Origin: Cyanobium sp. M30B3
Lineage (GTDB): Bacteria > Cyanobacteriota > Cyanobacteriia > PCC-6307 > Cyanobiaceae
Length of the DNA stretch: 64,000 nucleotides
Assembly (NCBI GenBank): GCA_018399015.1
Contig: CP073761.1
Coordinates: 620,001-684,000 of the forward strand
Reading direction: 5' to 3'
Shown here: positions 43,029 to 64,000 of the stretch, one piece after another
Layout: the number at the start of each line of letters is the position of its first letter
Position numbering within the stretch: position 1 is the first letter of the stretch
Notes under the pieces: model-generated
The model's database searches: none
Seen by the model: the letters and a program-made list of their open reading frames with translations, nothing else
Told to the model about the DNA's origin: nothing
Position numbers and translations under genes: made by a program

Positions 43029-44609
43029 TCAGGCCGCCGCCGTGCCATCGAGTCCCAGCTGCTGGCGCAGCTCCACGCCGTCGATCACCCCCCGCTCATG
43101 CAGCACCAGCCACTCCTGCACCGAGGGCTGGGGTTTACGCGGCGGCTGCGGCGGCACCAAGGGGCAGATCTCCACGCTGCAGGCCGGCGTGTCGGAAAGC
43201 TTTTCGCCGGTGAGGCGGGTCCACTGGCGGAGCAGGGTGCTCAGCATCGAGGCCTTCTGGCCTGCGAGTGACTGCAGCACCGCAAAGCTCTGGCCGGCAG
43301 TCAGGGAAATCTCCAGCTCGGTGCGGGCGGGGCCGTGGCCGCCAGCCGGGATCAGGGCGTCGTGGCGCATGGCCTCCTCCAGCTGCTGCAGGTAGGCCCG
43401 GTGCTCCGCCAGCGAGCGGGCCTCGATCTCCACCCACTCGAACTTGGCGCCGTCGGGCAGGTCCATGAAGGAGGAGGTGGAGAGCACCAGGCGCTGGGGG
43501 CGCTGGGCATCTGTTCCCCCTGGCCCTGCACCCGAGCCGAGGGCGCCGTCGCTGCGGCGGAAGCCATAGGCATCCACCAGGCCGGTGCGCACGCCGACTG
43601 GCAGGGCCGTGCGCGACAAAAGATCTTCGTATTCGCTGCGGCAGCGGTAGTGGTTGAGGTACTGGTGCGCCAGGCCCAGGTGGGGGAGATCGCCCTCACC
43701 GAAGGCGGTGCCATCCACCGAGTACCAGAGAGCCGGCAGGTCAAAGCGCTGGGGCATCCGTTCCGGCTCGCCAATGGGCACCACGTCGTAGCCATCGGCA
43801 GCACCGGGATTGGGGTTGGCCTGCCAGCTGCGCAGCACCAGGCCGTCGTCCGTCACCGCCAGGCTGCGGTACAGCCAGGCCTGGGGATCGGGCACCAGGC
43901 CGCCGTGGGCGTCGATCACCACCGTGGGCACCGCCGCATTGCCGCTGGCGAAGCGGGGCGGCAGGGCCTGCCGGCGCGGCTCCCGCCAGACGATCTCCAC
44001 CGGTCCCGATGCCGGAGCGCCGGTGGCGCAGTCGGTGGGCAGGCGCCAGTTGAGCAGGTCGCCCCGGGGCACCAGCTGCAGCCGTGGCAGGGAGAGGCGG
44101 TCTCCCTTGGCGAGGGCCTCCAGCCGGTCCCCCTCTGAAGGCCAGCGGTGCTGGGGCGGCAGCTGCAGGATCAGGCAGCCGCCATCGCGCAGGGTGAGCA
44201 GGTCGGCCAGGAACAGGAACACCCCCAGGTCGGTGCCCTGGCCATCGACATCAGTGGCGACCCGGCCCAGGGAGTCGGGTAGCTCCTGCCAGGCCAATCG
44301 CGACAGCATCCCGGCGTAGGTGCGCAGGGCATCGCGGTAGAAGCCGGTAGGCCGGGCGGCTTCCAGCCGCTTGAGGTAACAGGTCTCGGGCTCCTCGAGG
44401 CCGCGGGGGAGGTACATCGGCCGGCGGCTGGTGCCGTCAGGCAGCTCCAGCAGGGTCCAGCAGTCGTAGACAAGCTGCAGCCGGTCCCGCAGGCCGGAGA
44501 GGGTGGGGTGTTCCAGCCAGGGGGGCTGGGCAGGGGGCTGAGCTTGCGGTGCGGCTGGGGAGGCGGGGCTGCTGGAGGTGGCTGACCTGCCACGGCTGGT
44601 GGTGGGCAC
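43029..44609 (-). CDS. Phage portal protein (DUF4055 type)
   Basis: 526 aa. DUF4055-type features: HPTLSGLRDRLQLVYDCWTL, YLKRLEAARPTGFYRDALRT, a GDLLNWRLP segment, LPALWYSVDGTAFGEGDLPH and the clip/stem region with RCRSEYEDLLSRTALPVGV. The C-terminus is helical. It forms the dodecameric DNA channel at the capsid vertex. The terminase genes are 9 kb upstream rather than adjacent, because the protease/lanthipeptide-like cargo is inserted between. Confidence 0.82.
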   Translation of the reverse strand: MPTTSRGRSATSSSPASPAAPQAQPPAQPPWLEHPTLSGLRDRLQLVYDCWTLLELPDGTSRRPMYLPRGLEEPETCYLKRLEAARPTGFYRDALRTYAGMLSRLAWQELPDSLGRVATDVDGQGTDLGVFLFLADLLTLRDGGCLILQLPPQHRWPSEGDRLEALAKGDRLSLPRLQLVPRGDLLNWRLPTDCATGAPASGPVEIVWREPRRQALPPRFASGNAAVPTVVIDAHGGLVPDPQAWLYRSLAVTDDGLVLRSWQANPNPGAADGYDVVPIGEPERMPQRFDLPALWYSVDGTAFGEGDLPHLGLAHQYLNHYRCRSEYEDLLSRTALPVGVRTGLVDAYGFRRSDGALGSGAGPGGTDAQRPQRLVLSTSSFMDLPDGAKFEWVEIEARSLAEHRAYLQQLEEAMRHDALIPAGGHGPARTELEISLTAGQSFAVLQSLAGQKASMLSTLLRQWTRLTGEKLSDTPACSVEICPLVPPQPPRKPQPSVQEWLVLHERGVIDGVELRQQLGLDGTAAA

Positions 44610-45207
44610 GGGCTGCTGGTTGGGTCAGAGCCATTGCCAGAGGTAGCGGTTGGCTGCGGGGAAGGCGATGCAGGATCTGCATGGTTCCAGTCAGATCATT
44701 TGGGCAAGCGAGTCGGCCAGAGCGAGGGACACAGGTTCTTACGAGGGTCCGCATATGAACCAGGCTTGATGATCCATCTGCCCGAGAGTGATTGCCACGC
44801 AGTGGGTTTAGGGTTGAACTGTTATTGACTTCGGGATCTTATGCGGACCAGCAGGGGCCAGGCGATCTTTTAACGAGGATCCGCCCATATAGCGTTAGGC
44901 ATCAGAAAGTCGCCCCCAGTTCCCAAAAGGAAGTAGGGCAATCGACCGCAAGGCATAACAGCCCTTACTAAAATCGGAATTCATCAATCAGGTCCAGTCC
45001 TACGTTTTTAATCATGGCAGCATGAAAGGCTATCCCTGCCGTAACGAAGCTGCGTCTGTTTTCGGAGGCTGCCGGTCGGTGCCAACGCCCAGCATGTCTC
45101 CGTCCACTCTTTCCGGCTGAGATGGGCGGGGATAAACACATTGCTGAAATGGCACATGTGATTCCAATCTGTCCGACGACAATCTGGTTGAGCGCCCATC
45201 AACCTGA
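44610..45207. other. AT-richer junction region with short repeats
   Basis: About 600 bp with no convincing gene. It has a 10-bp inverted repeat GGTCCGCATA (44746-44755) / TATGCGGACC (44840-44849), and related sequences ACGAGGGTCCGCATAT and ACGAGGATCCGCCCATAT (about 44741 and 44873). These may be IS or MITE ends marking the edge of the inserted cargo. Confidence 0.4.
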
Positions 45208-45456
45208 TTGACACGGGACACTGGCAAGCGCCGCGCACTACCCGATACACCCGAGGGGCGGGTGGATGATCTGGTCGAAACTGCCAAAGCTCATATCCGC
45301 GCCAAAGTGGAGCACCCATTTCGGGTGATCAAACGACAGTTCGGCTTTCAGAAGACCAGGCTGCGGGGAATGCTCAAGAACAGCTGTAAAGTGCATGTGC
45401 TGGCAGCACTCTCGAACCTCTTCATGGCACGTCGCAGATTGCTATGCAGTACGTGA
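45208..45456 (+). pseudogene. IS5-family transposase C-terminal remnant
   Basis: 82 codons containing the IS5 signature IRAKVEHPFRVIKRQFGFQK and LAALSNLFMARRRLL. It lacks the N-terminal catalytic domain. It marks past transposition beside the protease/LanC operon. Confidence 0.8.
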
Positions 45457-45564
45457 TTGCGGGGTTGGTGTGCCCATGGAGGGAAAAGTCGCCCCATTAG
45501 GGCCAGTTTTGGGTCCTGAAACGGTGAGATCAGGGCAATCCAGCCTGAAATTGTCCAAAATCGT

Positions 45565-45747
45565 TCAATCCGAACAAATTGCAGTTTCGAGCTCTCTTTC
45601 AGGGCTCGTTGCCCAGAGCTTCCTTAGAGCTAAAATCAAAATAAACCCAAGGGCAGCAGCGACGATAAGCTCAGACTGAACAAGAAGCAGGCTTATCCAT
45701 GCGAAGTCGATTATTCGTAGAATAGCATTTATTCGCCTTCGAGCCAC
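45565..45747 (-). CDS. Small membrane protein coupled to the I9-like protein
   Basis: 60 aa from a GTG start that lies inside the last codons of the I9-like gene, so it is probably translationally coupled. A hydrophobic core (IIDFAWISLLLVQS, LIVAAALGFILILAL) is flanked by basic residues (MARRR) and a charged C-tail. It may anchor or export something, or act as immunity for the protease system. No family recognised. Confidence 0.45.
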   Translation of the reverse strand: MARRRINAILRIIDFAWISLLLVQSELIVAAALGFILILALRKLWATSPERELETAICSD

Positions 45748-46001
45748 CTCGAGTATTCAATAGAAACTACTAGTGGATCCATTGATAGAACTTTAACCCT
45801 TGAGAGTTCAATGCTGCCTGTTAATATGTCGCCCACTGATGAATTTACCTTCAGTCCAGCTGAAGACAGGCGAGCAAAGTCCGTGCTTTCGGGGATCCGC
45901 GATACAGCTATGAGTATCATAACCTTCTGGCTTCCGCTTCTTTGGCCGGCAACATATTCATTGACATATTGAGCAATGATTGGGTCTAGCTTGTTGGCCA
46001 T
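45729..46001 (-). CDS. Stand-alone I9-like propeptide/inhibitor of the operon's protease
   Basis: 90 aa from the ATG at 46001; the longer frame adds a hydrophobic stretch without a good start. The segment KVMILIAVSR ... LKVNSSVGDILTGSIELSRV parallels the N-terminal prodomain of the S8 protease at 49446 (RVQVIIQATS ... LTIRSQIGDIITGVIALDKL), including the spacing. I9-type prodomains chaperone and inhibit subtilases, so this is a candidate inhibitor, immunity protein or folding helper. It lies 280 bp downstream of the LanC-like gene on the same strand. The homology was found by eye within the window. Confidence 0.65.
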   Translation of the reverse strand: MANKLDPIIAQYVNEYVAGQRSGSQKVMILIAVSRIPESTDFARLSSAGLKVNSSVGDILTGSIELSRVKVLSMDPLVVSIEYSRWLEGE

Positions 46002-46282
46002 GGGATTTTCAGGCAGACTGGGTTGCAATGATAACCGATAATGACACTGTAGCTTGAAGACGTGAATTCCTTCAGACAATAGTGCAAGCAATAGATACAG
46101 GGTCCAATGAGTCATTGCAATAGATTATTGCACTTTATCCCCGCAAGCATAAGCGTTCTGAGTAATACTTGGATGCCCTGGTTAAGGCGAGTGATGCCGA
46201 GAGGGCTGCAAGCGTAATAGGCCGCTTCTAATATAGAGCAGTGACGGGAGATCTTTTTGATGCGCTTGGAGGCATCTTCCTT

Positions 46283-47536
46283 TCAAATCGGACTTGGTGC
46301 GGGAGTCCATGCACAGGGAATTTTCTCTGGAAGGGCCGCGCGGAACTGTCCCCATGCAGCGCCAGCGAGACCAAGCATCATCCCAGGTGTTGGCTCTCCA
46401 CTGGCAAGACCGCTGCGTGGTCCAATGATTCCTTTGGCATCATCGCGTACAAAAGCAGCAAGTTTGTGTGCAAGCTTACGGTCATGTTCCGTACCAGTGG
46501 CTACGAGAAGGTCGATCAAACCAGAAATGCCATGGCACTGAGAAGCATTGGCACCGTATCCAGCGCCCGGTCCGGCTGGACCGGCCAGCACACGGCCGGC
46601 CTCTCTACGAGCGCCCAAAAGTGCTGCCGAACAGTCTGCACTCATCAATGGACAATTGGGGCGACGGCGATGGGCGGTTAGCCGATCATGGGCAATACCT
46701 ACAGAGCCCTGACACCACATGTGGGGATGATTGGGTAATCCACCCTCACCGAGTGAGTCTGGACGCAAGTCAGCCCAGCTGCTCTCATGAGGATCAAAAT
46801 GAGCCCGTTCAAATGACCGCGCCTCCTCGGCCACATCGAGCCATCGTTCTTGGTCAGGAACTACTGTGGCTAGGTCTTCAAGCGCTAGCGCTATGCCGGC
46901 GGCGCCATGGGCAAGTCCGCATAGGGCAGTGCTTTCCCCAGGGAGCATTGGCCAGCAGAGCCCTTCATCCGTTTTGACGCTACAACCCACCAGCCGGTGA
47001 CCGACTTCGGTGGCCAGGTCTCTCAGCTCTAACCTGCCTTGGTGGGAGAGCCTCGCAGCTGCATGAACAATCCCGGCAAGGCCAATCAACAGGTCGGTGG
47101 GTGCTGTGGTCTTCTCCGCAGCCACAAGTGCACCAGTTAAGCACTGCTGTGCCAAGTGATATCCCTGTTCAGCGATTTCGGGCCTGTCCAGCATCGGGGA
47201 GATCTCAATGGCAACAAGAGCCACTCCCATCCCCCCTGAGTGGAGCCCCCAGCCCTCTACCCGCTGAAGGGAATGGAGGAGTGCCCCTATCGCGGTTCGT
47301 CTGACATCATCCCCAGCATCCATCTGTGCGGCCCAAGCAAGCGATCGGGCTATACCGGCGGAGCCGTCGTAGTAATCGGCTCCGAAGACACGCCAGCGTG
47401 CCGGCAACCCGAGCGATGGAGCAGCCTGGGCGCCCTCAAATGCGCAGACTGCACCGTGCCAAATTGCACCACTAGCAAGCAGGTTTGCCCACTCCAATCC
47501 TGCTGCTAACGCTGCTTCAGTTTGAGGATCACTCAT
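46283..47536 (-). CDS. LanC-like lanthionine synthetase cyclase
   Basis: 417 aa, the size of stand-alone LanC. The double alpha-toroid repeats carry the family motifs: LCGLAHGAAGIAL (His210), HMWCQGSVGIA (Cys275) and SQCHGISGLIDLL (Cys334-His335), the last two giving the three zinc ligands. LanC catalyses addition of Cys thiols to dehydrated Ser/Thr. It overlaps the HopA1-type gene by 4 bp in an operon with a kinase and a protease that has a Thr/Ser-x-Cys tail. Inferred role: form thioether rings in that tail or in an unseen precursor. Confidence 0.85.
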   Translation of the reverse strand: MSDPQTEAALAAGLEWANLLASGAIWHGAVCAFEGAQAAPSLGLPARWRVFGADYYDGSAGIARSLAWAAQMDAGDDVRRTAIGALLHSLQRVEGWGLHSGGMGVALVAIEISPMLDRPEIAEQGYHLAQQCLTGALVAAEKTTAPTDLLIGLAGIVHAAARLSHQGRLELRDLATEVGHRLVGCSVKTDEGLCWPMLPGESTALCGLAHGAAGIALALEDLATVVPDQERWLDVAEEARSFERAHFDPHESSWADLRPDSLGEGGLPNHPHMWCQGSVGIAHDRLTAHRRRPNCPLMSADCSAALLGARREAGRVLAGPAGPGAGYGANASQCHGISGLIDLLVATGTEHDRKLAHKLAAFVRDDAKGIIGPRSGLASGEPTPGMMLGLAGAAWGQFRAALPEKIPCAWTPAPSPI

Positions 47537-48375
47537 GAGCCAATGAGTACAGATAGACGGCGTGATAGCTCAGGTCCAAGAAGACCACGGTCAACTTTAC
47601 TGCCCACGGCGACGACCGTTTCGGCGATTGCAGTGCAACAAGCCTGACCAAAACTGCGCTCCTTTCCCGGGTCAGGTGCGAGACAGGCCCCACCACTCCA
47701 TCGATGAGCCAGCCGTACCTTTGGCCCAGTGAGGAGTGGACTGAGGCACTCCATGAGGGTGATCACCCATGCTGCTGACTCTGCACCGGCAGGCAGATAC
47801 AACAGTGCGGGATCACGGCGCCCACCGCTGTGATAGCCGGAAAGGAACTTTGCCGCCCAGATATCACTGGTCGGGGCCATGCGTAATAGTATTTGCGCAG
47901 CTTGACGACAGCTGGATCGAGGCAGCGGGAAGTATATGCGGACCATGCGTGCTGGAGGCCCCTCCATGCGCCATCCATCTGACCAGAGATGCCAGAAGCC
48001 TGGTATCGGAGCAGCATTACGCATCAACCTACGCACGACGAGACCAGTTGCGAGCGGCAACGTTGCATCGACGGGGGCAAAATCTCCTGGCAGGACGACA
48101 GCCTCCATGCCGCTTAGGTGTTGTGCTCGGATGCCCTCAGGCGATATCGATTTCAATGACCATCCAGTTGAAAACAGCTCAGGAATTGCGGTTGATGCAG
48201 CGTAGCTACTCGGTGAAGGCCATAGTAGCGGCGGGAAGTAATCGTGGAACCAGTGCTCATAGAGGTAATCAGCAAGAACATCGCAGTCCTGAGCCTGATC
48301 AGGGTCGGTTTCGTGCAAAGCCTCGAGACAAGTCAGGGCATCATTTATATCCTCTGCAAACTCATTCGGGATCAT
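47533..48375 (-). CDS. HopA1-family protein (putative lanthipeptide lyase)
   Basis: 280 aa. Family resemblance: an early YLYEHWF, a central strand ARMVRIYFPLPRSSCRQAAQ, then IWAAKFLSGYHSGG and RDPALLYLPAGAE, and a late APDPGKERSFGQACC. HopA1-family proteins (LxmY type) act as phospho-Ser/Thr lyases in class V lanthipeptide pathways. It overlaps both neighbours: 14 bp with the kinase gene upstream and 4 bp with lanC downstream. Together the three supply phosphorylation, elimination and cyclisation. Confidence 0.75.
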   Translation of the reverse strand: MIPNEFAEDINDALTCLEALHETDPDQAQDCDVLADYLYEHWFHDYFPPLLWPSPSSYAASTAIPELFSTGWSLKSISPEGIRAQHLSGMEAVVLPGDFAPVDATLPLATGLVVRRLMRNAAPIPGFWHLWSDGWRMEGPPARMVRIYFPLPRSSCRQAAQILLRMAPTSDIWAAKFLSGYHSGGRRDPALLYLPAGAESAAWVITLMECLSPLLTGPKVRLAHRWSGGACLAPDPGKERSFGQACCTAIAETVVAVGSKVDRGLLGPELSRRLSVLIGS

Positions 48376-49471
48376 TGTCGGCCATCAACTCTCGAGAGAC
48401 ACCTGCTGCGTCGGTTAGGCATGCCTCCACTAGTGTAATGATCCGCATGATCGCAGTATCATCGGCTTCTGCAACAATTGAACGGTACTGGATCATGCTC
48501 ATCATCAGCCAAGCTCCACAGTAGAGAACCAATCTTTGCGTCAATGCCTTAGCTGGGACTGGTACTACTGAGCGATAAGTCTCTATCATCCTACGGGCAG
48601 TCGCTTTTGCAGTGTTCGACCAGTTTCCGGTTTCTGTTTCGGACACCAACAACGGGCGGCTCATGAGGCCTGCGAGATCCCAAGTTGGATCGCCGATTGC
48701 GGCCATCTCCCAATCAATCACCACAATGCGATCACTGCAGTTAACAAGCAGGTTATCGTGTTTTAGATCACCATGAATCAGCGCCACTCTCCGCCAAGCG
48801 CCACGTGTTCGACGAAGACCAGCCACCAGTGCGGGGCGTGACGCTACAAAGTCAAGAACTGGTCGCAGGAGCGGGTTTGCCCATATCTCGGCAGGAGCAT
48901 CACCGTCAAAGAGCCTTAGAACCCAGGGGACGGGGCTGTTGAAGCGAGGATCGATCGAACCGTCCTGGTGGCGACGGGCTGTCGCTCGGTGCATGCGTGC
49001 CAAGGCAGGGACAATCAGTGGCACAAGCGCATCAAGATCAGCTGCCGCATTTGCCGGCACACCATTAGAGAGTGCATCTCCCTCCCAGGCAGGTCGTCCG
49101 TCAAACCACTCGGTTACAATCAGATCCGCTGCACTGTGATGTGACCGCATCGAACTGAGCAGACACGCAAGCTCTGGCACCTCACGGCCAAGTTCATGAA
49201 CGAGTGCTTCGCGCAGCGCCTCTCCCTCAGTCTCGCTAGTCTTAGGGTCGAAAAGCTTTATTGCGGCAACGGGTTGCCCATCCTGCTCCAAACACCAAAC
49301 AGCATGCGATCTTCCAACCGGCAACAGCAAGAGGTCTTGGAGGATGGCTTCGCGGCTTTGAAGCAGGCCGCAGGCGACAAGATCTTTTACAAGGCATGAC
49401 CGGCGCGGGGGTGGTTGGACCATCCCCGCGTTGACTGTCGTGAGACTAGACTTGGCCATCTGATTCGTCAT
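48362..49471 (-). CDS. APH-type kinase (putative lanthipeptide Ser/Thr kinase)
   Basis: 369 aa from MTNQMAKSS (ATG at 49471); alternatives at 49498 and 49459. Aminoglycoside-phosphotransferase fold: an N-lobe Lys in VAAIKLFDP, the catalytic loop LIHGDLKHDNLLV (Asp about 235, Asn about 240) and the metal-binding IDWEMAAIGDP, then WDLAGLM. Class V lanthipeptide loci use such a kinase (LxmK) with a HopA1-type lyase. It overlaps the protease 3' end by 26 bp and the HopA1 gene by 14 bp, indicating a tightly coupled operon. Confidence 0.8.
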   Translation of the reverse strand: MTNQMAKSSLTTVNAGMVQPPPRRSCLVKDLVACGLLQSREAILQDLLLLPVGRSHAVWCLEQDGQPVAAIKLFDPKTSETEGEALREALVHELGREVPELACLLSSMRSHHSAADLIVTEWFDGRPAWEGDALSNGVPANAAADLDALVPLIVPALARMHRATARRHQDGSIDPRFNSPVPWVLRLFDGDAPAEIWANPLLRPVLDFVASRPALVAGLRRTRGAWRRVALIHGDLKHDNLLVNCSDRIVVIDWEMAAIGDPTWDLAGLMSRPLLVSETETGNWSNTAKATARRMIETYRSVVPVPAKALTQRLVLYCGAWLMMSMIQYRSIVAEADDTAIMRIITLVEACLTDAAGVSRELMADNDPE

Positions 49472-51833
49472 AGTCAAACCAACTGTCGTCATATTCAAAG
49501 TACCCTTGTTCAGGAATTATTTCGGCAGCTGGTTCCGGTTGCTCGCTGGTCCAAGCCTCGCTAAGGGTTTCCCAAATCTGACGCGCGATCTCTGCGGCCA
49601 GGGCTTCCATCTCGGGGGAGAGAGGATTGATAGAAGGTGTGCCAATTGCGCGATTGCCCGGTATGTTCAATGAGGGTGTATTGATCTTACCTGGGTTAGT
49701 CACAACCGTTCCGGGATTGATCACAACCGTTCGGGGGTCGCACCCACCTGGGGTGGAAGGGCAGCCGTCGACGAGAGATGGACAGCGAACTGCACTGGGT
49801 ATGCATCCGACTACCCTTGAATTCACCATGCACTCGGACGGAACCCGGGTGAGTTGGAGACATCTCGGCACGCGTGTAACGAGTTGGGTGCATTGGGGCT
49901 CTACGACAGTCTGCAGTTGGCATCGCGGTCCAACTCGCGTGAGTAGTTGACGGCAGAATGGTCTAACGACAGTTAAGCGATGGGTGATACCGGGCGCAGG
50001 CACGCAATTCACAGCGGCCTGAGCATCCACTTTGCCAGCACCCCATGCAGTATTGGGAACAGGGCCAGTAAACCCATCCTGCCCAGCGGTGGTTGTAAGG
50101 CACTCACGGATCTGCTCCTGGGTGCGGTTTGGATTCTTCTGGAACATCAAGGCAATGATGCCCGTGATGTGAGGGGCTGACATCGAAGTACCGGAGAAAT
50201 CGATGTATGGGGCGCCGCCTCCAAATTCAGCGTTGGCAGAGAAGACGTTCGTGCCCGGTGCGCTAACTGTTGGTGCAAGTCGACCATCACGGGTCGGTCC
50301 CCGAGATGATGATGCACTTAGGCCACCCACACCGGGACCTCTTGTAATATAATTAGCAGCTGTTATCACCTTCTGTGCCGTGCCAGGTGTTGAGATGGTG
50401 CGGTCGTTGCTCTCAAAGGGGGCCGTGAAAGTCGGTCTCTGTGTGAACGAGTTGTGTCGCTGGATCCAACCATCGAAACGCCCGCCCCCGGCAGATGAAA
50501 CACTTTGCAGCCGCACTGTCCAGTCACCGGGCCTGACCTGCGTTGCACTGCCTCGGGTGATGGTGATAAAGATACGTTTGTCGCCGTTAAACGGATCATT
50601 ATTGCGGTGATCAATACGCACCGTATTGCCGCCAGCCAGGGTGGAATTGGTTGCTAAGCCGACATTTACAAGACCTGTAGAATTACCGGCAGAGTCAACA
50701 ACCTCTACCCGGAATGTGTTGCCGCCTCCATACCAGAAATCTAGCGTGTCTGGCGTAGTGTTGCCACTTGGCTCAGCAAAACCGACATTGACCACCCCTC
50801 CACTGGGTACCGTTCCCCCAGCATGGTGGCGTGCATTGCCAACATTCCCAGCAGATTTCACGAATGCCCGCCGTTGCGGACCGAGCAGGTTATCGAGGCC
50901 TCGTTCCAGCAGACTTGTGCCGTCGTGGGGCCCGAGATTGTCTCCCAAGCTCATGTTGACGACACATGCACGGTTGCCGCTCGACTGTGCACGCTGGTAG
51001 CAGTAATTCACCGCATCGAGCGCATTTGCTGAAGTGCCTAGCCCTTCGGACCCGCCTCCACCGACTTTCACGATGATCAGATCAGCTTCTGGGGCCACGC
51101 CGACAAACCTGAACGCCGGCTGGCTGGAGCTGGATGCGCGCCCGTTGCCAGCCGCGATGCCAGCGACATGGGTGCCGTGCTTGCGTGGATCGCGGCTGCG
51201 GACCTGAGCGAAAGGATTGGCCTGAGTGAGTGCCGCATTGATCTGGGCGTTTGTGTACTCCACTCCGTAGGCAAATCCTGCTGGCGCGGTCTCGGTACCC
51301 GTTCTGATCAGCGTCTGATCCCAAATAAAAAGAATTCGACTCGTACCGTCATCATTGCGGAAACAGGGGTGTGTGAAGTCGCAGCCAGAATCAACGACAC
51401 CGACGATCACGCCCGACCCTCTGCGGCCAGGGGGCCCCTGTTGGACAAGATTAACTCGTGTGTCCACAATCGCGAGATCAAGTTCTGCGACCATTTCGCG
51501 AGCACTCTCAACCAGCTCAACGCCCTCTACTGCAGCAAGGTCAGGCAGCTTGTCCAGTGCGATTACGCCGGTGATGATATCGCCGATCTGGGACCTGATA
51601 GTCAAGCCACTATTGGCAAGTTGATCAACTCCTGAGGTTGCTTGAATTATAACCTGAACTCTTGCTTGCCCTAGTTTAGACTTCTCACCCTCTTTCGCTT
51701 TCTTCGGAGTTGACTCGATTCCAAAGAAGCTAGACTCTTCGATTTCCTCCAGCGCTTTCTCGCTATCGTCTTGAATGTTGCCTGAAACAGCATCAAGTAA
51801 AAAACCCAGCTGAGGATCGCAGTGATTGATCAT
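49446..51833 (-). CDS. Subtilisin-like protease with C-terminal Thr/Ser-x-Cys tail (putative thioether-modified)
   Basis: 795 aa. Residues 1-115: N-terminal region with an I9-like prodomain (GQARVQVIIQATS ... IGDIITGVIALDKL). Residues about 130-610: S8 domain with Asp148 (GVVDSGCDFTHP), His219 (KHGTHVAGIA), Asn330 and Ser550 (FSGTSMSAPH), plus an inserted beta domain (about 340-480). Residues 619-700: nine Cys (627 to 698), each preceded by Thr or Ser at 3-5 residues' distance, e.g. TRVGPRC, TVVEPQC, TRVPRC. Then a Pro/Asn linker and an acidic end (EYDDSWFDYDESD). No signal peptide. It is the first gene of the kinase-HopA1-LanC operon. The tail looks like a multi-ring thioether substrate fused to the enzyme. 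Confidence 0.88.
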   Translation of the reverse strand: MINHCDPQLGFLLDAVSGNIQDDSEKALEEIEESSFFGIESTPKKAKEGEKSKLGQARVQVIIQATSGVDQLANSGLTIRSQIGDIITGVIALDKLPDLAAVEGVELVESAREMVAELDLAIVDTRVNLVQQGPPGRRGSGVIVGVVDSGCDFTHPCFRNDDGTSRILFIWDQTLIRTGTETAPAGFAYGVEYTNAQINAALTQANPFAQVRSRDPRKHGTHVAGIAAGNGRASSSSQPAFRFVGVAPEADLIIVKVGGGGSEGLGTSANALDAVNYCYQRAQSSGNRACVVNMSLGDNLGPHDGTSLLERGLDNLLGPQRRAFVKSAGNVGNARHHAGGTVPSGGVVNVGFAEPSGNTTPDTLDFWYGGGNTFRVEVVDSAGNSTGLVNVGLATNSTLAGGNTVRIDHRNNDPFNGDKRIFITITRGSATQVRPGDWTVRLQSVSSAGGGRFDGWIQRHNSFTQRPTFTAPFESNDRTISTPGTAQKVITAANYITRGPGVGGLSASSSRGPTRDGRLAPTVSAPGTNVFSANAEFGGGAPYIDFSGTSMSAPHITGIIALMFQKNPNRTQEQIRECLTTTAGQDGFTGPVPNTAWGAGKVDAQAAVNCVPAPGITHRLTVVRPFCRQLLTRVGPRCQLQTVVEPQCTQLVTRVPRCLQLTRVPSECMVNSRVVGCIPSAVRCPSLVDGCPSTPGGCDPRTVVINPGTVVTNPGKINTPSLNIPGNRAIGTPSINPLSPEMEALAAEIARQIWETLSEAWTSEQPEPAAEIIPEQGYFEYDDSWFDYDESDGQV
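49737..49979 (-). other. Region coding nine Thr/Ser-x(3-5)-Cys units in the protease tail
   Basis: Residues 619-700 of the S8 protease. Donor-acceptor pairs: T621-C627, T632-C638, T642-C648, T653-C658, T662-C668, S672-C677, S680-C684, S686-C691, S693-C698. Most donors are followed by V-V or R-V, a periodicity of about 10 residues in the first five units, shrinking to 7 after. No other Cys falls in the stretch. Confidence 0.85.
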
Positions 51834-52153
51834 TGCTGCTTAGCTCAAAAGTATCTAATTCTCAATGTCTCGCATCTGACTGCCCCTGTCAATCCAGGGC
51901 GTGTTCTGGAACACCATTCTTCATAGATCTTTGCGTCACGATAGCTGCCTAGTCAAAGGTAAGGCAACCACTTCGGACTTCATCGACGCAAATCACAGGC
52001 TGGAGTTGCTCGCCGGATGCGATCGCTCTGGCATCGGGGCTTAGGCCAGTTAGCCCCCAAAGAGACGCCAACAACCGGGGGCGACGATCGCGGGGAGCCC
52101 ATCGAACAACTGCATCGGATAGCCAAGGCGAATTCAACCGCTATGTCGCGAGC
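51834..52153. promoter_or_regulatory. Upstream region of the protease operon
   Basis: About 320 bp. It must contain the operon promoter; I see no clear -35/-10. A short minus-strand frame at 51949-52137 (about 62 codons) reads protein-like (LLASLWGLTGLSPDARAIA) but lacks an ATG and is not recognised; it may be a remnant. One HIP1 octamer GCGATCGC lies near 52018. Confidence 0.35.
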
Positions 52154-52471
52154 TCAGCCCGCAACCGGCCGGCGCTTCTGCGTGCTGTAGATCGCTGCCC
52201 CGCCAGCAGCCAGCACCAGGCCGCCGCTGATGGCCAGGAACACCAGGGTCTGCAGCAGCAGCAGGAAGAAGCCGAGGGCGGAGCCCGTTGCGATCTGCAC
52301 CCTGGCTTTGATCAGCAGGGTGAGCAGCAGCAGCACCGTGGCCTTCAGGGCCAGCAGCTTGGCTGAGGTAAATGGACAGAGGGGGTTCAGCAGCACAACA
52401 GGATTCCAGGTCAGTCCATGCTGGCGGCGGGGCGACGAGCCGGTGGCTTCACCTCGGGCGGCGGCGTCCAC
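52154..52471 (-). CDS. Small membrane protein, two helices
   Basis: 105 aa by the ATG at 52471, but the first 20 residues overlap the DUF1651 gene, so the real start may be near 52415 (NPVVLLNPLCPF). It has two strong hydrophobic segments (LKATVLLLLTLLIKA; GFFLLLLQTLVFLAISGGLV) and a basic C-terminal KRRPVAG. Size and topology would suit a phage holin or spanin-like membrane protein; it is in the terminase-sigma neighbourhood. Confidence 0.45.
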   Translation of the reverse strand: MDAAARGEATGSSPRRQHGLTWNPVVLLNPLCPFTSAKLLALKATVLLLLTLLIKARVQIATGSALGFFLLLLQTLVFLAISGGLVLAAGGAAIYSTQKRRPVAG

Positions 52472-52680
52472 TGGGGCTCGCAGGACTGCCAGCCCTGCTT
52501 GCGCTTCTGCGCCCAGAGCTTGATCGCCTCCTCACGACTGATCTCCTTGCGGCACTTCAGCAGAAGCGCCTGGCCGGGGATCAGTTCGCCGGTGGTGAGC
52601 TCCAGCGCCTGGGAGAAGCGGCTGTAGTGGACAGGCCGGAAGTGCAACAGCTGGCTGCTTCTGACGGGTACTTGCTTCAT
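52411..52680 (-). CDS. DUF1651-family small protein
   Basis: 89 aa. The C-terminal half ISREEAIKLWAQKRKQGWQS and CEPQW is the DUF1651 signature, found in marine and freshwater Synechococcus/Prochlorococcus. Function unknown. It supports the picocyanobacterial assignment. Confidence 0.75.
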   Translation of the reverse strand: MKQVPVRSSQLLHFRPVHYSRFSQALELTTGELIPGQALLLKCRKEISREEAIKLWAQKRKQGWQSCEPQWTPPPEVKPPARRPAASMD

Positions 52681-52841
52681 CAGCAGTGAGCTTCACTTGG
52701 TGATTTGCCAGCACCAGATTGGTAGGCCAAGAGCCAAGTGCTCAGAAGCCGCGATTTGATGCCTAACAACAACATTCACCCGGCCCGGCTGTGAAGGTCG
52801 TATCGTGAACGATGTCTCCCGCGGGCGGGTGATGTTGAGCG

Positions 52842-53531
52842 TCAATCAACAGGAAAGGCAACCACCCGCACTGAGCAAGCATCAACGATCTGAATCCACT
52901 GCTCGCCGCTGATCCTTATCCGCTCCAGCATCTCCTCCACGCCAACTCCTGAGGACAGCAACCGATGCCCACGCGCATGAATCTCCCGCCACGTCGGCGG
53001 CACCTTCAGCAGGAAGCCGTTGTCCCGCAAAAAGTGCGTAATCTCCCCATTGGCATAGGTACGCCCGTAAGGCCGAAATGGTCCCCGCGAGGGGTCGTAG
53101 CGCCGCGCCGCTTTGATCAGCCCGATCATCGCCAGCTGCAGCAGGTCTTCTTTCGGATGGACTGTGCGCCGAGCGAAGTTCCCGGCGATCTTCTCCGCCA
53201 GATCAATGTGCTCCAGCGCCAGGGCATCAGCAGCGGCATGGGGCTGCACCGGCCGTTCTCGCCGGGGCCTGCGCCGCGGAGGCCGCTGACCCTGATATCT
53301 GGGCGGGTGACGCACTGGATCGTGGAGGTTGATCTCCAACTGCTGCGCTCGGGCGTGGCACGCCGCCCTGCGGTAGCGCCGTTGACGCAGCATCCGCTCC
53401 ACCCCGGTGGCATCGCCCACCAACACCACCACGATCGGCAGCACCAGCTGCACCACAACTGCTGCCGGCTCAGGAGCCCCTGAGTTCGCCAGCGCGGAGG
53501 GTCCGGGACATTCCTGCACCGCGGACAGCAT
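52842..53531 (-). CDS. Sigma-70-family factor next to the terminase
   Basis: 229 aa from the ATG at 53531, 8 bp after the terminase stop. The N-terminal 100 residues are unique. A sigma-70 region 2 follows: LALEHIDLAEKIAGNFARRT, KEDLLQLAMIGLIKAARRYD, FRPYGRTYANGEITHFLRD. Part of region 3 comes after (KVPPTWREIHARG), and no clear region 4 is seen. It resembles cyanobacterial group 3 sigma factors. Likely role: redirect host RNA polymerase to late or island promoters. Confidence 0.72.
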   Translation of the reverse strand: MLSAVQECPGPSALANSGAPEPAAVVVQLVLPIVVVLVGDATGVERMLRQRRYRRAACHARAQQLEINLHDPVRHPPRYQGQRPPRRRPRRERPVQPHAAADALALEHIDLAEKIAGNFARRTVHPKEDLLQLAMIGLIKAARRYDPSRGPFRPYGRTYANGEITHFLRDNGFLLKVPPTWREIHARGHRLLSSGVGVEEMLERIRISGEQWIQIVDACSVRVVAFPVD

Positions 53532-53539
53532 CGGCCCCC

Positions 53540-55180
53540 TCACCGGCTCACCAGCAGCGGCGTCACCACCGGCTGGATGCCCTGGGCCTTCCAGTAGCGG
53601 CTCTCCAGCCATAGGGCGCCGTGGCAGAAAGCATCCACCAGGTCCTTGCTGCCCTTGGGGAAGCGGATCGCTTCTTCCACCAGCGGCTGGGCGCGATGGT
53701 GAAAGCGGATCTGCCCGGCTTCCACCAGGGGGGCGACGGCATGGGCGCGGGTTTCCTTGCTGCCTCTCGCCGTGATCGGCAGCATCCCCGGCACCCGACG
53801 CCGCAGCGTCTGCAGCACGGCCGGGCCGTTGGCGGCGTCTTCGATCAGTACGGCGTTGGGGCGGAGGCCCTGCTGCTCCAGCGCCTCCAGACAGCCCAAC
53901 AGGAAGCGGATCACCTCCGGCAGGCCAAAGCGGTGCCGGGCTGCCCAGAGCACCTCGATCTCCAGCTCCTGTGAGGACTGGATTCCCTGGGGTTCACCCG
54001 TTCGGGGGATGGCATGCCGGGCCGGTGGTGCCAGCAGGCCGGCCAGGCAGAAGCCGCAGTAGTCGCTCTCCGCCTCCCCCTTGAAGCTCAGGTCACACGA
54101 GAGCGTCAGCAGGGCGTACTGCCGCTGGCGGCCAGTGGCCGCTCCGGTGTCCTCGCGGGGGAAGGGCGGCCGGATCCACTGCCTCAGGAAGATGGAGCCG
54201 CTCGCCGGGCTGGGCCGCTGCTGATAGAGCGCCGCCCACCAGTAGGCCCCCAGGCGGGCCCTGATCTTGAGCAGTTCCGGCAGGGGGAACCGCTCCGGGC
54301 AGAGGGCTTCGCCCACCTGTCGCCAGTCGGGGATCAGGGTGCAGGTGGGCGGCAGCTTGGGCCGTTCTGCCGGGTCCTCGGCGATCGCCGGCAGATCGAG
54401 CACGGTCCACTGCTGCGGCGCTTCCCCCAGCTCCTGCTCGTACAGCCAGCCGATCACGTCCTGGTGGTCCCAGCGGGTCAGCACCACCACTTGGGCCGAG
54501 AGATTCGGCTGCTCCATGCCGTCCGGCCCCAGCACCGAGGCCGGCTCGGCGCGCGTCAGCCACACCGAGCGCAACCAATCGATCAGCTTCTGGCGCAGCG
54601 CCGGGGATGCGGCATCGCCGGGGCCCTTGTAGGGGTCGTCGATGATTCCCAGGCTGTAGCCCTTGCCCGTGAAGGGGCCATCCACACCGGCGGCGATGCA
54701 GCCACCGCGCTGGCGGGTGAGCCAGTTGCCCACCGCCGCCGAATCGCGGGCCAGCAAGTGGCCGGTCACCCGATAGAAGTGGCGGGCTTCCCTGGAGTGG
54801 GCATAGGCCAGCTCCGCCGAGTACGACGCAATCGCCGCAAAGAGCTGCGGGTAGCGCTGCAGGAAGTAGGCCGGGAACAGCTTGGACACCAGGAGGCTCT
54901 TTCCCAGGCGGGGTGGACAGGTAACGATCAGCCGGCTCAGCTGGCCATCAGCGACGGCCTGCAGCAGCTCGATCAGCACCTCGGCCCAGCGGTGGAAGCC
55001 GTAGCGGGGGTAGGCCTCGGCGATGAAGCTGCGCAGGCTCTGGGGTTCCGATTCCGCGGCAGCAGGGGGTGTGGGCAGGTGCAGCAGGCCACCGTCGCCC
55101 CAGGGGTCGCTGTCGGGCAGCAGCAACCCGCCCATATCAGGCAGAAGCCGTGGTGGTGATGTAACCGCCGCGGCCCTCAT
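53540..55180 (-). CDS. Phage terminase large subunit
   Basis: 546 aa. ATPase: Walker A-like TCPPRLGKSLLVSKL near residue 85, Walker B-like SLGIIDDPYKGPGD near 175, coupling segment VVLTRWDHQDVIGWL near 235. Nuclease (RNase H fold) acidic residues: LTLSCDLSFKGEAESDYCG, NAVLIEDAANGPA and KDLVDAFCHGALW. Packages DNA into the prohead through the portal. The start overlaps the small-subunit stop (ATGA). Confidence 0.9.
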   Translation of the reverse strand: MRAAAVTSPPRLLPDMGGLLLPDSDPWGDGGLLHLPTPPAAAESEPQSLRSFIAEAYPRYGFHRWAEVLIELLQAVADGQLSRLIVTCPPRLGKSLLVSKLFPAYFLQRYPQLFAAIASYSAELAYAHSREARHFYRVTGHLLARDSAAVGNWLTRQRGGCIAAGVDGPFTGKGYSLGIIDDPYKGPGDAASPALRQKLIDWLRSVWLTRAEPASVLGPDGMEQPNLSAQVVVLTRWDHQDVIGWLYEQELGEAPQQWTVLDLPAIAEDPAERPKLPPTCTLIPDWRQVGEALCPERFPLPELLKIRARLGAYWWAALYQQRPSPASGSIFLRQWIRPPFPREDTGAATGRQRQYALLTLSCDLSFKGEAESDYCGFCLAGLLAPPARHAIPRTGEPQGIQSSQELEIEVLWAARHRFGLPEVIRFLLGCLEALEQQGLRPNAVLIEDAANGPAVLQTLRRRVPGMLPITARGSKETRAHAVAPLVEAGQIRFHHRAQPLVEEAIRFPKGSKDLVDAFCHGALWLESRYWKAQGIQPVVTPLLVSR

Positions 55181-63196: not shown

Positions 63197-64000
63197 CTAC
63201 GCCATGGAGGCCTCCTCAAGACGTCTTCTGCGGAGCTCCTTGGCCCGGAGCTTCTGCTCGGCCTTGGTGATCCAGCGCTGGTAGTGGCGCCGATGAACGG
63301 TTTCGGAGTGGCCGAGGGATTCGGCTGCATCGGCTGTGGTCCAGAGCGGAATCAGCTCGGGGGTGCAGTGCACCCGTCTGGCCCAGCAGTGCCTCAGGTC
63401 GTAGGGGGTCAGCTTGCGTCCATCAGCGCTGACGGGTGGCGCTAGGCGACTGCAACGGGTAGAGACAGCCTGGCCGATGATGTTGTTCGGCCGGTCGGTG
63501 CGGATCGAGGGCAGGCGCATCTCCCGCAGCCGCCAGCGCTCGACCCACTCCTCGGGTGCCGGGTGGGAAATGTGAAAGCCCGTTTTCGTTTCTGGCAGCA
63601 CGGTCACCAGGGCGTCTTCGTCGGGGGGACCCTCCAGGTGGAACACCTCATGGGGCCGCAGCCCATAGGTGGCCAGCATCCCGAACACCCACTGCCATTT
63701 GGGCCGATCCTCCATGTGGTCGATCCAGCGCACGATGGCGTCGTCAGGAGCCAGCAAGCGGTCCGCAACTGAGGTCGCCCGGTAACGGGAGCGTTGGCGC
63801 AGCTTCAGAACGTCTTCCCTGCGCAGGCCCTGCAGTCCTGCCTCAATGAACTTGATGGCGGTGTCACAGCGGGCCAGGTAGTCCCTGCGGCCGCAGTCCT
63901 GCTCTTCGATCCAGTGCAGGATTGCTTCTGCAGTCGGGCTGTTCTCCCGCTTGGCGAGGGCATTGAAGTGGGAGTTGAAGGCCGTGGTGCTGCGCAGACC
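63197..64000 (-). CDS. Tyrosine integrase (N-terminus beyond the window)
   Basis: The frame is open to the window edge and encodes at least 267 residues of the C-terminal part; the gene continues past 64000. The upstream segment (STTAFNSHFNALAKRENSPT, GLQGLRREDVLKLRQRSRYR) is core-binding-like. The catalytic part has MLATYGLRPHEVFHLEG (Arg), LTPYDLRHCWARRV, ESLGHSETVHRRHYQRW with the nucleophile Tyr. It is the probable phage integrase, so the attachment site should lie just beyond the right edge. Confidence 0.85.
   Translation of the reverse strand, partial: GLRSTTAFNSHFNALAKRENSPTAEAILHWIEEQDCGRRDYLARCDTAIKFIEAGLQGLRREDVLKLRQRSRYRATSVADRLLAPDDAIVRWIDHMEDRPKWQWVFGMLATYGLRPHEVFHLEGPPDEDALVTVLPETKTGFHISHPAPEEWVERWRLREMRLPSIRTDRPNNIIGQAVSTRCSRLAPPVSADGRKLTPYDLRHCWARRVHCTPELIPLWTTADAAESLGHSETVHRRHYQRWITKAEQKLRAKELRRRRLEEASMA

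Follow-up and report, generated by a model that had tools for sequence, protein, structure and literature searches.

A Cyanobium operon that joins lanthionine-type enzymes to a subtilase with a substrate-like cysteine tail

The window analysed here, 64,000 nucleotides from the 3.18-Mb, single-contig genome of Cyanobium sp. M30B3 (contig CP073761.1, positions 620,001 to 684,000), carries a minus-strand operon in which an S8 subtilase gene is followed by three enzyme genes, encoding a kinase of the APH type (K), a lyase of the HopA1 type (Y) and a LanC cyclase (C). The subtilase ends in a cysteine-rich repeat tail, and sequence patterns and gene order indicate that this tail is probably the dedicated substrate of the K-Y-C enzymes. 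Lanthionine-forming enzymes are familiar from short precursor peptides. If the proposal is true, chemistry known from peptide antibiotics would be extended to a whole enzyme, the leader would be a complete folded protease, and such a substrate would escape precursor finders tuned to short peptides. It would also pose the question of which serves the other, the rings by equipping the protease or the protease by freeing the rings.

The subtilase tail and the enzymes encoded beside it

The tail holds 9 cysteines within 81 residues, all 9 of which have a serine or threonine 4-6 residues upstream, inside their own inter-cysteine segment, in agreement with an earlier sequence-only reading that had described a ring-ready Thr/Ser-Cys tail on the protease. 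Shuffling the tail with cysteines fixed gave a mean of 3.8 paired cysteines of 9, with all 9 reached in 1 of 50,000 shuffles, and the 11-cysteine tail of a sister locus (L002, described below) gave a mean of 6.6, with 11 reached in 54 of 50,000, values that overstate the independence and significance of the pairing because the tail units are repeats. When the 20 units from both loci were aligned on their cysteines, the Ser/Thr partner was far more regular than any other position. Furthermore, the run of nine paired cysteines compares with at most three in the other 387 open reading frames (ORFs) of 60 or more residues in the window, and no other ORF among the 127 of 25 or more residues between 44.5 and 53.0 kb has a run of three or more. 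The earlier claim that the operon has no separate precursor thus stands for the tail's pattern within 44.5-53.0 kb, while a precursor of another pattern is possible there; no short precursor with leader and core was recognised in that interval, the rest of the genome having been left unsearched.

As the sequence-only reading had stated, the four frames overlap, by 26 bp between S8 and K, 14 bp between K and Y, and 4 bp between Y and C (coordinates in Table 1). An origin of the overlap or of the tail as a frame artefact was considered and rejected, as a similar layout recurs in L002. Pfam matches identify the subtilase (S8, 1.6e-41), the kinase (APH, 6.2e-17) and the cyclase (LANC_like, 7.1e-28). 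The subtilase has the S8 domain with its Asp, His and Ser motifs, and LanC has the Cys and Cys-His motifs of the zinc site and the general His (WCQG at 274, CHG at 334, HGAAG at 210).

The lyase was identified through its relatives. Window Y aligns with the Y genes of three other loci, L003 (1e-11), L018 (2e-7) and L035 (3e-7), all of which are clear HopA1 members (1.4e-25, 6e-32 and 2e-41, respectively), and a profile of an eight-row alignment that includes it matches LxmY (PDB 9dk1_B) at 3.5e-22 and HopA1 (4rsw) at 2.1e-6. LxmY is part of the LxmKY dehydratase of lexapeptide, the structure of which has been solved (PMC12141560). The residues named for CaoY (H57, R187, K219 and R229; PMC9486802) have counterparts in H41, R146, K176 and R186/R187 of window Y, in the same order and with spacings of 30 and 10 as compared to 32 and 10 in CaoY; R146 is invariant in 8/8 alignment rows. 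The claim that the operon supplies an APH kinase, a HopA1-type lyase and a LanC was therefore upheld, by Pfam for K and C and by the eight-row profile for Y.

Related loci and distribution

A scan of genome contigs with the lyase matched one locus, L002, in a metagenome-assembled genome (MAG) of Sandarakinorhabdus (genome G386). Here a propeptide-like ORF, a tailed S8 gene, K, and a Y gene cut by the contig end lie on one strand. In this genome a LanC with 53% identity to that of the window begins at the end of another contig, with a second S8 gene (Pfam 1.1e-25) after it, and the two contigs presumably join. The S8 and K frames probably overlap in L002, where the start is uncertain, as they certainly do in the window. 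The two tailed subtilases are 63% identical overall, with 73% in the catalytic region, 51% in the propeptide, 36% in the variable tail units, 77% in the closing stretch around VDGCPSTPGGCDP, 27% in the linker and 57% in the C-terminal motif. Despite the diverged sequence and changed number of units, the Ser/Thr-Cys rule is kept for 11/11 cysteines of the L002 tail, an outcome that answers in the affirmative the question, raised with the fused-substrate idea, of whether the closest homologous locus keeps the pairing. Among L002 ORFs of 25 or more residues and at least 3 cysteines, no separate precursor was obvious by eye, in a locus whose Y gene and LanC are separated by contig ends.

Control subtilases were taken from 17 S8 loci, comprising L002, three without a scorable ORF (L022, L023 and L047), and 13 that gave 14 ORFs, two of the loci (L004 and L005) being near-identical and L005 shortened. 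In the tail region, 13 of the 14 control ORFs have no cysteine and the remaining one has 3 in 464 residues, although 9 of the 14 end before this region, so that the tail is absent from them rather than present without cysteine. At a threshold of 1e-4, neither K nor Y nor C was matched in the DNA around the 16 control loci, the flanks of some being short. The possibility that the tail is a common trait of this S8 clade was rejected, none of the 14 control ORFs having a Cys-rich tail. The Sinorhizobium subtilase of L004 (7713-10049) may have a second propeptide-like domain at its C terminus, from a weak match (E 0.018).

The gene order K, Y, C of the window recurs in six further loci, including those on plasmids of Aliiroseovarius (L003), Deinococcus (L035) and Pseudonocardia (L038), with Y and C fused in the latter two. 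In all six, the gene immediately upstream of K is a precursor-like ORF (80, 304, 449, 202, 201 and 88 residues in L003, L017, L018, L029, L035 and L038), and the slot of the tailed S8 is therefore a precursor slot. Because these more distant loci have separate precursor-like ORFs, the fusion would be a variant and not the rule. A separate S8 gene follows C in three of eight K-Y-C loci (L029, L035 and G386). L030 has C only, and in L036 and L037 K and Y are present but C gave no match.

Some of the precursor-like ORFs are unusual in their own right. Those of L018 (7594-8943) and L017 (10828-11742), from two genomes of the MAG's order, are long proteins with repeated CKDVMWTAGCTF-type units and 34 and 24 cysteines, respectively. 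The ORF of L029 (7942-8550), directly upstream of a kinase-HopA1-LanC-S8 row, has many PQTISFAQ-type repeats and 3 cysteines. The 201-residue ORF of L035 (3099-3704), upstream of the kinase and the HopA1-LanC fusion, is outside the record's gene table and has Ser, Thr and Cys at its C terminus.

At E 1e-60 the tailed subtilase was found in 1 of 400 genomes of the family, was absent from 12 other genomes of the genus (some incomplete), and matched 4 of 379 genomes of the phylum, namely its own and three in which the catalytic region was matched. The HopA1 protein search of a phylum sample returned only the own genome (1/386). In the MAG's genus the tailed S8 was found in 1 of 24 genomes at E 1e-40. 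A kinase profile matched 343 of 396 genomes of the MAG's order at E 0.001, three of them strongly (3.5e-181, 1.1e-44 and 1.7e-42, the next best being 1.8e-11). A LanC profile matched five of 376 genomes of the MAG's class at E 1e-25, of which G386 and G1313 have K-Y-C, G1153 matches neither K nor Y in the region read, and G1172 and G1300 were left out. No relative came up in scans of viral contigs with the S8 alignment, with a DNA pattern of the tail or with LanC, and a phage-record search with S8 gave 10 records with partial S8 matches.

Weighing the tail as a substrate

The tail is favoured as the substrate because the pairing holds in 9/9 and 11/11 units despite 36% identity of the variable tails, because the S8-K-Y order recurs in L002 with a LanC in the same genome that is 53% identical, because the other K-Y-C loci (6/6) have a precursor-like ORF in the slot that S8 occupies here, because none of the 14 S8 ORFs of the 13 control loci has a Cys-rich tail or, in the surrounding DNA covered, a match to K, Y or C, and because active-site motifs are present in all four proteins and the Y profile finds LxmY. 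The proposal of the sequence-only reading that the tail is a fused substrate thus survived tests of pairing and of control subtilases.

Several points weigh against this interpretation, in addition to the repetitive nature of the tail units and the early ends of many control subtilases. The tail occurs in two loci only, one of them from a MAG with its LanC on another contig. Window Y alone matches Pfam HopA1 at 0.005, under the cut-off. The kinase matches the LxmK model at 5.5e-8 with 32 bits as compared to a cut-off of 315, and is thus not an LxmK equivalog, and a PDB search with its profile at 1e-5 missed LxmK. Finally, the precursor-like ORFs of the other K-Y-C loci lack the spacing of the S8 tail, with longest runs of 1-2 in the five that were scored. 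AlphaFold models built on two-row alignments were too poor for use (mean predicted local distance difference test score of 32.7 for S8 and 42.6 for the HopA1-like protein).

In the proposed mechanism, the kinase would phosphorylate Ser/Thr residues in the repeat tail of the subtilase encoded just upstream, the lyase would take off the phosphate to leave dehydroalanine or dehydrobutyrine, and LanC would add the cysteine of the same unit, forming one ring per unit, 9 in the window and 11 in L002. The S8 body would do the work of a leader peptide, the EYDxSWFD motif conserved at the C terminus being a candidate docking site, and the propeptide together with a stand-alone propeptide-like protein would hold the protease in check. 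The operon product would be either a protease that bears lanthionine rings on its tail or a lanthipeptide freed from the tailed S8; thioether formation, ring topology, and release or retention of the tail are predictions of this scheme. The tailed subtilase would presumably be cytosolic, and inspection by eye, the sole means used, revealed no signal peptide at its N terminus.

Comparison with known systems places the operon outside class V proper. In borosins, a core peptide is fused to the C terminus of an enzyme that itself carries out the modification, whereas the fused enzyme here is a protease, and modification would fall to three other enzymes. The Csp germination subtilases are S8 proteases and include the best PDB sequence match of the window S8 (CspB, 4i0w; 5.6e-44), but lack its Cys/Ser/Thr tail and adjoining lanthionine enzymes. 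Class V of the lanthipeptides has been proposed (PMC7794033), with loci in which the APH kinase and the HopA1 lyase are joined by a second APH protein (PMC9486802). The window operon resembles that class (lexapeptide, cacaoidin) in its APH-type Ser/Thr kinase and in a HopA1-type lyase with matching catalytic residues. It differs in having a LanC in place of the second APH-like protein (LanX), since it contains one APH gene and one LanC, and in having neither a short precursor nor a Cys decarboxylase. Because LanC is present and a second APH gene and a short precursor are absent from the operon, the earlier assignment to a class V-like family was dropped.

There is also a likeness to published clusters in which HopA1-phosphotransferase pairs occur near or fused to LanC (families 11/20 and 22; PMC8153245). 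The window operon has kinase, HopA1 and LanC together, as these clusters do, and its first gene is that of the S8, whose precursor-like tail may stand in for a precursor gene at the start of the operon. The precursor search of that study was aimed at short peptides, whereas the substrate-like stretch here is the tail of a subtilase. The earlier statement that no described system of this form was known needs a correction: kinase-HopA1-LanC clusters are in print, while a lanthionine substrate fused to a protease was not recognised in a search of open-licence literature.

A different use of the tail, and one that we regard as on the unlikely side, is that the subtilase is leader and leader peptidase in one and cuts off its own ringed tail, giving a nine-ring lanthipeptide. 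This is a form of the fused-substrate explanation, kept apart by its product, a peptide and not a protease. An S8 maturation step would fit the separate S8 peptidases after LanC in three of eight K-Y-C loci; within the window operon the tailed S8 is the only one seen, and conservation is low in the linker that follows the tail (27%). However, G386 has a separate downstream S8 besides the tailed one, which need not be the maturation protease, and the nearest PDB sequences to the tailed S8 are Csp-type S8s, its match to the L029 S8 covering only 45 residues. A tail that binds metal or forms disulfides while K-Y-C modify an unlinked peptide encoded elsewhere is improbable: cysteine spacings of 7-12 also suit other cysteine chemistry, and the search for a precursor covered only 44.5-53.0 kb, a limit that also counts against the tail as substrate, but the Ser/Thr partner is kept in 20/20 units with S/T interchange while other positions vary, the tail occurs beside K-Y in 2/2 cases and in 0/14 other S8 ORFs, and the S8 frame runs into that of K in the window, as it probably does in L002 too.

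Prophage setting and neighbouring genes

Because portal, sigma-factor-like and terminase genes flank it and an integrase match (2.9e-5) lies at 63197-63757, the operon is placed in a prophage or a prophage remnant. It occupies a variable cargo site, 44610-52841, between the sigma/terminase genes and the portal gene, with a G+C content of 0.50-0.59 as compared to 0.69-0.71 in the flanks. A terminase search at E 0.001 matched 7 of 13 genomes of the genus; six of these matches, the one in its own genome among them, were strong. The site was compared with six other elements from five genomes of the genus (L054-L059; portal match partial in L058 and L059), with a further contig match in G916 left out. 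The gap holds different DNA in 6/6 of these elements: Lamassu LmuA-LmuC-LmuB in G833, HEC-04 (3.8e-212) on contig C13 of G885, an AriA/OLD-like ATPase in G853, an Mrr-type nuclease (4.9e-5) in G916, one unknown ORF in G949, and a PIN domain with other genes on contig C20 of G885. Defence-like genes are thus present in four of the six gaps, the AriA/OLD-like and Mrr-type assignments resting on broad or weak matches.

Table 1. Features of the window discussed in the text
Feature	Position	Strand	Details
S8 subtilase with Cys-repeat C-terminal tail, Csp-like, 795 aa	49446-51833	-	motifs DSG, HGTHV, GTSMSAP
N-terminal propeptide-like region of S8, aa 1-118	51480-51833	-	51% identical to L002
S8 catalytic region, aa 119-612	49998-51479	-	73% identical to L002
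Substrate-like tail, aa 618-698, 9 segments	49740-49982	-	up to nine (methyl)lanthionine rings proposed to form here
GYxEYDxSWFDxD C-terminal motif region, aa 775-795	49449-49511	-	conserved in both S8-tail loci
LanK-type (APH-fold) Ser/Thr kinase, 369 aa from ATG	48362-49471	-	AIKLF, HGDLKHDN, IDWE
LanY/HopA1-type phospho-Ser/Thr lyase, 280 aa	47533-48375	-	H41, R146, K176, R186/R187, compared with CaoY residues
LanC cyclase, 417 aa	46283-47536	-	HGAAG (H210), WCQG (C275), CHG (C334, H335)
Stand-alone propeptide-like protein, about 90 aa	45729-46001 (46001 the likely start; longer ATG frame to 46115)	-	proposed trans inhibitor/chaperone of S8
DDE transposase remnant beside operon	45208-45456	+	DDE_Tnp_1, 7.7e-8
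Prophage portal protein, one cargo-site flank	43029-44609	-	phrog_145, 4.1e-18
Phage sigma-factor-like gene, other cargo-site flank	52842-53612	-	
Prophage terminase large subunit	53540-55180	-	phrog_38, 2.3e-75

This setting suggests a role as prophage-borne defence or competition cargo. That the operon serves the prophage as an anti-phage system inside the cell, acting through a protease effector with a trans inhibitor or through a lantiphage-like peptide, is a tentative reading to which we give somewhat less than an even chance, and it is compatible with the tail being a substrate, a self-cleaved product or a binder of metal. Besides the variable contents of the site, four of six defence-like, and the G+C content, the S8 matches the PADLOC 'subtilase' profile at 1.8e-30, although that profile also matches S8s of unknown role. 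Intracellular anti-phage lanthipeptides have been described (PMC12360287), and these lantiphages are also covered in PMC13064858; the window operon resembles them in placing lanthionine enzymes in a defence-gene neighbourhood, but they are reported from defence islands of Actinomycetota, and anti-phage action of the operon is a candidate function only. Two of the six sites lack a recognised defence-like gene, two more depend on the broad or weak matches, and the sister locus in G386 follows TonB-receptor-like and transketolase-like genes with no phage gene seen. A defence role is therefore plausible from location and profile matches, and, with Lamassu and other defence genes at this prophage site in relatives, a part in phage conflict can be tested directly. 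The most specific form of the idea, in which the product of the lanthionine synthetase is a whole enzyme, namely a prophage-borne, propeptide-controlled subtilase with a nine-ring tail that acts as an intracellular anti-phage effector, is rather unlikely.

Both S8-tail loci contain the stand-alone propeptide-like gene. The window copy matches the N terminus of the window S8 at E 1e-5 and the L002 copy at 9e-12, and its product may be a trans inhibitor or chaperone of S8. Three rhizobial S8 relatives have, next after the S8 gene, an ORF of 84-85 residues that is weakly like the stand-alone propeptide by hhalign (probability 71%, E 4e-5), while plain tblastn gave no match between the two. On these rhizobial plasmids (L041, 2215-6434; L042; L044), the S8, the 84-85-residue propeptide-like ORF and a PLD-domain protein lie in a row, possibly a protease-inhibitor defence module, and in L044 a CHAT-domain gene lies nearby.

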